Below, in pieces: positions 55,298 through 58,297 of a stretch of 64,000 bases of DNA. The notes beneath the pieces are model-generated. The model saw nothing but the letters and a program-made list of their open reading frames with translations. It was not told where the DNA came from and searched no databases. The first letter of the stretch is position 1, and every line of letters starts with the position of its first letter. The DNA comes from Actinokineospora xionganensis (lineage in GTDB: Bacteria; Actinomycetota; Actinomycetes; Mycobacteriales; Pseudonocardiaceae). The stretch is from the NCBI RefSeq assembly GCF_014323725.1, contig NZ_JABVED010000007.1, forward strand, positions 182,251 to 246,250. Reading direction: 5' to 3'. The position numbers were made by a program, and so were the translations under genes.

Positions 55298-56533
55298 TCA
55301 AACAGGAACCGGATCCTCGGCCAGCTCGCGCAGGTGACGAACCCTGCTGAACCACAGCAACACCGGATCCACCAGGGTCATTCCGCAGAACACGATCAGG
55401 GCGGTGCGCGTGTCCGCCAGGGTGGCGACCACGCCGCCCGCGAGCGCGCCGACCGGGATGGCGCCCCACGAGACGAACCGCACGGTCGCGATGACCCTGG
55501 ACAGCAGCTCAGGCGGGCTCGCGACCTGCCGGTGCGTCCGCGCGCCGATGCTGAAGACCACAGTTCCGGCACCGAACCCGATGTTGCCCAGCGCGAAGAG
55601 CACCATCCCCCAGACGCCCGTGCCCAGCGGCATCAGCAGGGCGAGCGCGGCGCCGCCCGCGGACCCAACAATGATCGCCTTGGCGCTGCCCAACCGGCCG
55701 ATCAGCCACGGCGCGAGCGCCGCGCCGAGCAGGCTGCCGACGCCATCCGCGGCGATGAGCAGGCCGACGAGCACCGGTGAGGCGAACAGGTCCCGGACCA
55801 GGAACACCGGGATGAGTGCCATGAACGCGCCATTGGCGAAGTTGCTCGTGGTCGCGGCGAACATGCACGGCCGCATGACCGGATGTCCGACCACGAACCG
55901 CCAGCCCTCGCGGATCATCGCGGCCATGCCCGGCCGGTCCTCGACCCGGGGAGCGCTCGCCTTGGGCAGGCCCCGCAGCAGGACGGCGGAGGTCAGGAAG
56001 CTGACCGCGTCGATGATCAGGGTGGGCACGGCGCCCACGAGTTGGACGACGACGCCCGCGAGGCTGGGTCCGCCGAGGCTGGTGACCGAGTGCGTGCCGG
56101 AGACCAGGCTGTTGCGGGCGGTCAGCTCGTCGCGGCTGACGATCTGCGGCAGGAACGTCATGTTGCCGACATCGAAGAGCACGTTCGCCAGGCTGATCAC
56201 CAGCGCGGTCACGATGAGGTGGGCCAGGGTCAGCCGGTCCAGCCACCACGCCACCGGGATCGAGCCGATCGCCACGGCCCGAATGAGATCCATCGCCACC
56301 TGCGTCTCGCGCAGCGGCAGGCGCTGGACGATCACTCCCGAGGGCAGGCCGATCAGCAGCCACGCCAGATAGGAGGCGGCCGTGATGAGGCTGACCTCGA
56401 ACGCCGACGCGCCCATGGTGCTCACCGCGACCAGGGGCAGCGCCACGGTCGTCACAGCCGTCCCCGTGTTGCTGATCGTCATGGCCGACCAATATCGCCA
56501 GAACACCGCCACCCCCAGTAAGTGAGTTCCCAT
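55298..56533 (-). CDS. MFS transporter
   Basis: 411 residues from an ATG at 56533 that lies inside the operator palindrome; a GTG at 56512 (VAVFWRYWSAMTISNTG) is at least as likely. About twelve hydrophobic segments, with the motif-A-like loop LPSGVIVQRLPLRETQVAMD between TM2 and TM3. It is the enterobactin/macrolide-exporter-like MFS type, so drug or metabolite efflux is expected. It is divergent from the HxlR-peroxiredoxin fusion gene, with the shared palindrome suggesting control by it. Confidence 0.85.
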   Translation of the reverse strand: MGTHLLGVAVFWRYWSAMTISNTGTAVTTVALPLVAVSTMGASAFEVSLITAASYLAWLLIGLPSGVIVQRLPLRETQVAMDLIRAVAIGSIPVAWWLDRLTLAHLIVTALVISLANVLFDVGNMTFLPQIVSRDELTARNSLVSGTHSVTSLGGPSLAGVVVQLVGAVPTLIIDAVSFLTSAVLLRGLPKASAPRVEDRPGMAAMIREGWRFVVGHPVMRPCMFAATTSNFANGAFMALIPVFLVRDLFASPVLVGLLIAADGVGSLLGAALAPWLIGRLGSAKAIIVGSAGGAALALLMPLGTGVWGMVLFALGNIGFGAGTVVFSIGARTHRQVASPPELLSRVIATVRFVSWGAIPVGALAGGVVATLADTRTALIVFCGMTLVDPVLLWFSRVRHLRELAEDPVPV

Positions 56534-56550
56534 TCGGAACGCACTATAGT
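56517..56550. promoter_or_regulatory. operator and -10 element between MFS gene and HxlR-redoxin gene
   Basis: AGTGAGTTCC-CATTC-GGAACGCACT (56521-56545, written here as its two arms) is an inverted repeat with nine of ten arm pairs. It abuts TATAGT (56545-56550), a plausible -10 for the HxlR gene. The AGTAAGT at 56517-56523 matches the half-site in the second palindrome at 57434-57454. Confidence 0.65.
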
Positions 56551-56577: not shown

Positions 56578-57450
56578 ATGAAGCACACCGAACTCTCCGA
56601 CGCCGACTGCGCGATCGCCCAGGCGCTCAGCGTGGTGGGCGACTGGTGGACGCTGCTCGTCGTGCGCGACATCGCGGGCGGCATCACCCGGTTCGACGCC
56701 TTGCAGCGCGAACTCGCGGTCAGCCGCAAGACGCTCACCGAGCGACTCAAAGCGTTGGTGGAGCACGGAGTAGTCGAGCGACGGCAGTACTCCCAACACC
56801 CGCCGCGGTTCGAATACCACCTGTCCGACGCCGGCCGCGGGCTGCTGCCGGTGCTGATCGCGTTGCAGGACTGGGGAACCCGTCACGTCACCGGCGATGG
56901 CTCGCTCACCGCCACCACCACGCCGACTTCGACGGAGGCCGCTCGGGTACACGGCCTGGTGGGCCGCAGGATTCCGACGCTGACGCTGACGTCAGACCGC
57001 GGCGAACCGATGAAGCCTGTCGACGGGCGCTGGACGGTCCTGTACTGCTTCCCCGGCGCCTTCGCCCCTGGCGGGCAGGGCTATCCGCCGGGCTGGACCG
57101 ACATCCCCGGGGCGGCCGGGTGCACCCTTGAATCGACGACGTATCGCGACCGGTTCACCGACTTCGACCGACTCGGCGCCGCGGTCCACGGCGTGAGCAC
57201 CCAGCGGCCGGACCAGCTGCGGGCGTTCGCCGAACACGTCGACCTGCCGTTCACCCTGCTCTCGGACGAAGACCTGGCACTGGCCGCGGGCCTGCGGCTG
57301 CCCACGTTCCGGGCCGCGGGGGTCGACCGGCTCAAGCGGGCGACGCTCGTCGTCGACCCGGAGCGAACCGTGCGGGCGGTCCAGTTTCCGGTGGTCGACC
57401 CGGCGGCATCGGTCGACGAGACCCTTGCCCAGCTAACTTACTTCAAGTAA
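56578..57450 (+). CDS. HxlR-type regulator fused to a peroxiredoxin domain
   Basis: 290 residues. The N-terminal domain (1-105) is an HxlR winged helix: CAIAQALSVVGDWWTLLVVRD, FDALQRELAVSRKTLTERL, GVVERRQY. HxlR redox sensors such as YodB and HypR use an N-terminal Cys; Cys11 is present here. After a Thr-rich linker (106-122) comes an AhpC/TSA-type domain (about 125-290) with LYCFPGAFAPGG and IPGAAGCTLESTTYRDRF, whose Cys182 is the candidate peroxidatic residue. Cys157 could be a resolving partner. This couples a DNA-binding domain to a peroxidase on one chain, suggesting a self-contained oxidant sensor. It is divergent from the MFS gene and 34 bp upstream of the SDR gene. Confidence 0.88.
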   Translation: MKHTELSDADCAIAQALSVVGDWWTLLVVRDIAGGITRFDALQRELAVSRKTLTERLKALVEHGVVERRQYSQHPPRFEYHLSDAGRGLLPVLIALQDWGTRHVTGDGSLTATTTPTSTEAARVHGLVGRRIPTLTLTSDRGEPMKPVDGRWTVLYCFPGAFAPGGQGYPPGWTDIPGAAGCTLESTTYRDRFTDFDRLGAAVHGVSTQRPDQLRAFAEHVDLPFTLLSDEDLALAAGLRLPTFRAAGVDRLKRATLVVDPERTVRAVQFPVVDPAASVDETLAQLTYFK

Positions 57451-57454
57451 GTTA
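57434..57454. promoter_or_regulatory. palindrome at the HxlR-redoxin / SDR junction
   Basis: TAACTTAC-TTCAA-GTAAGTTA has perfect 8-bp arms and spans the stop codon of the fusion gene, about 30 bp before the SDR start. It contains the ACTT-N5-AAGT pattern common in HxlR-family sites and shares AGTAAGT with the upstream operator. It may control the SDR gene or act as a weak attenuator. Confidence 0.6.
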
Positions 57455-57484: not shown

Positions 57485-58297
57485 GTGAGGTCGTTCGCGG
57501 GCAAGGTCGCAGTGGTCACCGGCGCGGGCTCCGGCATCGGCCGGGCGCTCGTCGTCGCCCTGGTCGCCGAGGGCGCCAAGGTGGCCGCCTCCGACATCGA
57601 CGTGGCCGGGCTGGCGGAGACCGCGACCCTGGCGGGCGGCGAGGTCCGCACGTACAAACTCGACGTCGCCGACCGGGACGCCATCTACGCCCACGCCGAG
57701 CAGGTCGCCGCCGACTTCGGCAAGGTCGACCTGGTCATCAACAACGCGGGCGTGGCGCTGCAGGGCACGGTCGCGCAGATGACCGACGAGGACATGGCAT
57801 GGATCATGGACGTCGACTTCTGGGGCGTCGCCCACGGTTCGCGCGCCTTCCTGCCGCACCTGGTCGCCTCGCGCGGGCACCTGGTGAACATCTCCAGCGT
57901 GTTCGGGCTGATCGGGGTGCCGACGCAGAGCGCGTACAACGCGGCGAAGTTCGCGGTGCGCGGCTTCACCGAGGCGCTGCGGCAGGAAATGCAGATCGAG
58001 GGGACCAAGGTCGGGGTGTCGTGTGTGCACCCGGGCGGGATCAAGACCAACATCGCCCGCAACGGCCGGGTGTCCAACCCGGACGACGCCGCCGCGTTCG
58101 TGAAGGCGCTGGACAAGGTCGCCATGACGTCCCCGGAGAGCGCCGCCCGCACGATCCTCAACGGCGTCAAGCGCGACCGGGCCCGCATCCTCATCGGCGC
58201 GGACGCCTACGCGATCGACGCGCTGCCGCGGATCTTCGGATCGTTCTACCAGCCGCTCGTGCGGATCGCGTCGAGCCGGTTGAACTCAGGCCGCTGA
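57485..58297 (+). CDS. short-chain dehydrogenase/reductase
   Basis: 270 residues of the classical SDR family: cofactor loop VVTGAGSGIGRAL, NNAGV, catalytic Ser in VNISSVFG, and YNAAKFAV (YxxxK), with HPGGIKTN after it. An Asp in ASDID at the end of strand two favours NAD(H). GTG start with GGGAGG. The substrate is unknown. It follows the HxlR-peroxiredoxin fusion and a palindrome, so it may be part of the same response. The last 12 bases overlap the convergent oxidoreductase gene. Confidence 0.92.
   Translation: MRSFAGKVAVVTGAGSGIGRALVVALVAEGAKVAASDIDVAGLAETATLAGGEVRTYKLDVADRDAIYAHAEQVAADFGKVDLVINNAGVALQGTVAQMTDEDMAWIMDVDFWGVAHGSRAFLPHLVASRGHLVNISSVFGLIGVPTQSAYNAAKFAVRGFTEALRQEMQIEGTKVGVSCVHPGGIKTNIARNGRVSNPDDAAAFVKALDKVAMTSPESAARTILNGVKRDRARILIGADAYAIDALPRIFGSFYQPLVRIASSRLNSGR

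Follow-up and report, generated by a model that had tools for sequence, protein, structure and literature searches.

Many thiol-based redox regulators react directly with oxidants, and some eukaryotic ones are oxidized via a separate peroxidase; Orp1 (Gpx3), for example, hands oxidation to the transcription factor Yap1. Among the bacterial HxlR-type regulators, QsrR and CatR are single-domain proteins, as is YodB. In published accounts, the DUF24 repressors YodB and QsrR are inactivated at an N-terminal Cys via disulfide formation or alkylation, YodB, QsrR, and CatR control detoxification genes (PMC8063818, PMC6798810), and the peroxidase Prx2 hands oxidation to the transcription factor STAT3 (PMC7481202). 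Here, we describe a gene at positions 56578 to 57450 (plus strand) of a 64,000-nucleotide (nt) stretch of DNA (the window) from Actinokineospora xionganensis contig NZ_JABVED010000007.1, whose 290-amino-acid (aa) product joins an HxlR regulator to a peroxiredoxin (Prx) and carries two conserved cysteines, Cys11 and Cys182. It resembles YodB, QsrR, and CatR in having an HxlR winged helix, a conserved N-terminal Cys, and a palindromic operator, which is putative here (PMC8063818, PMC6798810). It differs in its size and domain content, since YodB is a protein of 112 aa with no peroxidase domain, and in the operator itself, which is TACT-N7-AGTA for YodB (PMC8063818) and AGTnnGTTCC-N5-GGAACnnACT for the fusion family.

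The HxlR and peroxiredoxin domains are joined in one real chain. The winged helix (PF01638) occupies residues 19 to 104, with an E value of 8e-24 and a score of 83.7 bits against a Pfam cutoff of 20.8; a linker (about residues 105 to 125) connects it to a C-terminal, PrxQ-like AhpC/TSA domain (PF00578; residues 128 to 267; E value of 4e-16). The first-pass annotation of this DNA had called an HxlR regulator fused to a peroxiredoxin, and the two profile matches confirm it. The Prx fold is further supported by a structure model and structural matches, and Cys182 is predicted by the model to lie in the first turn of a helix (residues 179 to 191), which is the usual location of a peroxidatic Cys. 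Scores against the NCBIfam equivalogs for thioredoxin-dependent PrxQ fell below the curated cutoffs (44.9 versus 140 bits and 39.8 versus 260 bits). Among 38 sequence matches in the PDB, no entry held both domains; the structural-match list was filled by Prx-domain matches and is hence weakly informative on this point. The peroxiredoxin-nitroreductase 4eo3 is a natural Prx fusion like the window protein, but, according to its title, it joins enzyme to enzyme and has no DNA-binding domain. In two public annotations of family members, both on records of a plasmids collection, the only label is that of a winged helix-turn-helix (transcriptional) regulator.

The fusion defines a conserved but patchy actinobacterial family. 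A single scan with a pattern across 84,980 species genomes, a method that reaches close relatives only, returned 50 relatives, comprising 42 fusions (L001 to L042, with L040 cut by a contig end) and eight non-fusions (L043 to L050); the records of the fusions are titled as actinobacteria, for example, Actinophytocola, Micromonospora, Nonomuraea, and Streptomyces. Full-length fusions were present in 9 of 150 genomes sampled from the family of the window, in 1 of 6 within the genus (the window itself), and in 3 of 396 genomes of a phylum sample. In a sample of the class, 20 of 394 genomes gave matches with E values no higher than 1e-50, one of these matches being L156, in which the HxlR N terminus is missing, and four further fusions (L088 to L091) came from records of a plasmids collection. 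This patchy spread suggests gain and loss. Other genomes had been named from the outset as the place to look for the fusion, and 72 members, the window included, were collected: 55 that were aligned first, again counting the window, and 17 that were found later and are 59 to 95% identical to their nearest relative in the first set. Excluded from the 55 were L092, L096, and L051, which come from the genome of the window itself, and L097 and L100, which duplicate L001 and L002 exactly; L133 and L136 to L138, repeat fetches of counted or partial fusions, were not counted, and L090 and L091, which are 99% identical, were both counted. Because members were selected as full length, the rarity of split forms in the set is no evidence.

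In the tree of Prx domains, one branch (100/99) separates 55 fusions from 19 free-standing relatives, and in the tree of HxlR domains, which has few columns and long branches, one branch (97/96) separates 71 fusions from 43 single-domain relatives. Since the fusions lie on one side of the branch in both trees, a single fusion event is the simplest reading, albeit no proof. Purifying selection is apparent on both domains (dN/dS for 14 pairs, closest pairs only). The tree pattern bears on the idea that the two domains function independently, with Cys11 sensing electrophiles, as in YodB and QsrR, and the Prx domain just removing peroxide and being reduced by mycothiol or mycoredoxin, as AhpE is. 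We regard such independence as quite unlikely: the fusions stay together on both domain trees, as if the pairing itself had been selected, and a protein present at repressor levels would be a poor scavenger.

We propose instead that the fusion protein is an autorepressor that works through thiols, controls an efflux pump, and uses its Prx domain as a one-Cys sensor, a reading to which we assign an even chance. An HxlR dimer would bind a palindrome at 56521 to 56545, over the -10 region between the fusion gene and a divergent gene for an exporter of the major facilitator superfamily (MFS), and the bound repressor would keep both its own gene and the exporter low. The C-terminal domain would have evolved from a PrxQ-like peroxidase and would serve as the sensor. 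Upon oxidation of Cys182 by peroxide or a similar oxidant, its sulfenic acid, with the usual resolving Cys missing, would react with a second thiol, which could be that of mycothiol or that of Cys11 in the HxlR part; this reaction would alter the DNA-binding part, so that the repressor is released and the exporter is made. What the sequence itself shows is that the two domains are fused, that the Cys, Pro, and Arg residues are conserved, where the palindrome lies, and that the fusion gene is linked to the MFS gene.

The regions upstream of fusion genes have AGTnnGTTCCnnnnnGGAACnnACT in common, and the putative operator in the window, which is strand neutral, reads AGTGAGTTCC-CATTC-GGAACGCACT. 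The family pattern AGTnnGTTCCn5GGAACnnACT, when up to 3 of its 16 fixed positions were allowed to mismatch and the 200 bp before each gene were searched, precedes 66 of the 72 fusion genes. It was found in 51 of the 55 aligned loci, compared to 6 of 11,000 dinucleotide shuffles, and in 15 of the 17 later loci, for which the search included 30 bases of the gene. The window palindrome is the sole copy with fewer than 3 mismatches in the 6.8-Mb genome; nine others have 3, the same as for a control pattern. A palindrome with up to 3 mismatches also lies before 16 of 44 HxlR-only hits (15 of 43 when a decayed fusion, L139, is excluded), the shuffle control applying to the fusion loci and not to these hits. 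The site thus appears to go with the HxlR domain.

In 33 of the 51 loci, ATA(G/C)T directly follows the palindrome and creates a -10-like TATA(G/C)T that overlaps the right half-site. Given this position over the -10 region, repression is more likely than activation. In the window, the self-complementary ACTATAGT (56543 to 56550; strand neutral) presents a -10-like TATAGT on each strand and partly covers the palindrome at its right end. Such symmetry yields divergent promoters, and ACTATAGT could act as a -10 element both ways, making it a possible shared bidirectional promoter element between the divergent genes. The start codon lies 11 to 14 bases past the palindrome in 23 of the 55 loci, a proximity that suggests leaderless fusion transcripts. 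Two other loci carry related sites. L139 (G450) is a decayed fusion remnant (about 1020 to 1470) with an intact palindrome near 1506, and L140 (G398) has two GTTCC-N5-GGAAC copies, at sites 1506 and 1538, before a single-domain HxlR gene; its divergent gene presumably encodes a DUF899-type thioredoxin-fold protein.

The divergent MFS exporter (MFS_3/MFS_1) is annotated at 55298 to 56533 on the minus strand. Its first ATG falls in the palindrome, and the true start is therefore probably inside 56480 to 56515. A homolog of this exporter lies beside 50 of the 72 fusions, the window counted: 39 of 42 named-genome loci (all except L031, L036, and L042), 3 of 4 from the plasmids collection, 2 of 8 further sampled loci, and 5 of the 17 later ones. 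A second MFS-like type, labeled by eye and 46 to 77% identical to the L060 gene, is divergent in 7 more loci (L042, L060, L148 to L150, L152, and L160). Among the divergent genes at MFS-less loci, also labeled by eye, are dapD-like (L059, L146, and L147), methyltransferase-like (L101 to L104), and enolase-like (L159) genes. L156 (G617), with its missing HxlR N terminus, has no clear palindrome upstream and retains the MFS homolog.

The first-pass annotation had put forward the absence of conserved cysteines from orthologs as one finding that would speak against it, and no such absence was seen. Cys182 is present in all 55 aligned fusions and all 17 later members (72/72), and Cys11 is present in 55/55 and 16/17 (71/72), the exception being the N-terminally broken L156; they are the only two Cys residues conserved throughout the family. 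Among the aligned fusions, Pro159 (55/55), Thr183 (55/55), and Arg254 (54/54) are invariant as well, and the GCT motif of the Cys182 region is found in 17/17 later members. In peroxiredoxins, the peroxidatic Cys and the conserved Pro and Arg have catalytic roles. Two other features of the free-standing relatives have mostly been lost. In PrxQ, a resolving Cys follows the peroxidatic Cys by five residues; it is present in 19/19 free-standing relatives but only in 6/55 aligned and 5/17 later fusions; the window protein has Thr187 at this position, which places it outside the atypical 2-Cys PrxQ class. A Thr two residues past the conserved Pro is likewise found in 19/19 free-standing relatives but in 4/55 fusions, the other 51 having Ala (Ala161). 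At least 6 of the 17 later members keep this Thr and one has Ser, with the L146 row being mis-anchored by the pattern; the Thr-keeping fusions L042 and L089 to L091 branch early in the Prx-domain tree. With both residues mostly lost, the Prx domain is unlikely to be an ordinary 2-Cys peroxidase and gives the impression of a peroxidase turning into a one-Cys sensor. The earlier view of a peroxidase-like domain built around Cys182 is upheld by the Prx profile and by the conserved Cys, Pro, and Arg but not by the resolving Cys; the Thr is a candidate for the active-site Thr/Ser in this subfamily with its extra residues.

The canonical PrxQ/Bcp spacing before the peroxidatic Cys offers a further reference. 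In alignments with Mycobacterium tuberculosis BcpB (5epf) and Xanthomonas PrxQ (5iiz), the fusion has about 15 to 16 extra residues before Cys182, and it differs from these proteins also in being joined to a DNA-binding domain and, in most members, in lacking the resolving Cys. M. tuberculosis AhpE (4xih, 4x0x, and 1xxu), a 1-Cys peroxiredoxin, differs in being a free enzyme and not a regulator. L064, L074, and similar peroxiredoxins that stand alone form a PrxQ-like group with about 15 to 16 extra residues before their GCTPQSC motif; a phmmer search with L064 returned distant PDB relatives only (6 at an E value of 0.001 or better; best, 9.6e-08).

It is conceivable that the Prx domain now serves as a ligand-binding or dimerization module and that what the repressor detects is some compound leaving the cell through the MFS pump, in which case Cys182 would either bind the compound covalently or be a relic. 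The replacement of Thr by Ala in 51 of 55 fusions, the retention of the resolving Cys in just 6 of 55, and the recurrence of an MFS_3-kind exporter as the neighbor would fit such a module. A relic, however, would drift, whereas Cys182, Pro159, Thr183, and Arg254 do not vary among the aligned fusions and the GCT motif holds in every later member; we consider this possibility somewhat doubtful.

A special case of the proposed autorepressor is a strict relay, intramolecular or intersubunit, in which the Cys182 sulfenic acid forms a disulfide with Cys11; it is the sharpened form of the idea put forward in the first-pass annotation. That these are the sole Cys residues conserved familywide and that few members still have the usual resolving Cys would favor it. 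On the other side, 11 of the 72 members retain the resolving Cys, and Cys11 is conserved generally among HxlR relatives; a strict relay seems unlikely to us. We rejected the conservation of Cys11 as evidence for a relay: all 44 of the HxlR-only loci that could be assessed have a Cys at the same position, a set that includes L139 and leaves out L118 and L050, which were not assessable, from a total of 46. Being equally conserved there, Cys11 is a general HxlR feature.

Several observations weigh against the autorepressor proposal. The HxlR-only control just described is one of them. A clear palindrome is absent from 4 of the 55 and 2 of the 17 loci, and no MFS gene of either type was found in 15 of the 72 loci. 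Where a neighbor recurs, it is an exporter and not an antioxidant gene. Finally, 51 of 55 fusions have Ala in place of the Thr of the free-standing relatives, and, should that Thr be the catalytic one, the fusions may react poorly with peroxide.

Each half of the protein belongs to a known family, but their union in one chain, together with the palindrome and the efflux partner, is undescribed as far as our searches go. The first-pass annotation knew of no characterized example, and we found no published description of an HxlR-Prx fusion in open-license PMC papers, which omit most subscription journals. Orp1-Yap1 and Prx2-STAT3 each consist of two separate eukaryotic proteins, whereas the fusion is one chain, in which a relay is hypothetical. 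Orp1-Yap1 and engineered roGFP-peroxidase sensors provide the comparison for a one-chain relay. Should such a relay operate, the fusion would be a bacterial single-protein counterpart of the eukaryotic peroxidase relays, switching on an efflux pump and tying redox sensing to efflux in actinobacteria. A conserved repressor, a peroxidase-derived domain, a defined palindrome, and one recurrent neighbor make the idea readily testable.

Downstream of the fusion gene lies a gene for a short-chain dehydrogenase/reductase (SDR; 57485 to 58297). The MFS and SDR genes had both been proposed as linked to the regulator. The MFS part of this proposal stands, with the exporter recurring at 50 of 72 loci and a shared palindrome lying between the genes; the SDR part does not, as none of the other fusions was found to have a homolog of this SDR next to it at E values of 1e-4 to 1e-6. 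The flanks covered were 3 to 4 kb or 1.5 kb, with hardly any downstream sequence in L001 and L040. L104 has a more distant SDR-like gene, labeled by eye, 0.7 kb downstream on the opposite strand. A perfect palindrome, TAACTTACTTCAAGTAAGTTA (57434 to 57454), overlaps the stop codon of the fusion gene and precedes the SDR gene; its 19-base core occurs nowhere else in the genome when up to 3 mismatches are allowed. We considered it as a second operator of the fusion, which was not borne out, since similar sites occur without a fusion: TAACTTACTTCAAGTAAGTTA-like palindromes precede SDR orthologs (57 to 61% identical) in L130 to L132, where there is no fusion, and genes that look TetR-like by eye in L126 and L127. 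This recurrence with SDR and TetR genes also leaves the SDR gene unsupported as a regulon member and suggests that TAACTTACTTCAAGTAAGTTA may be a candidate TetR operator for the SDR gene.
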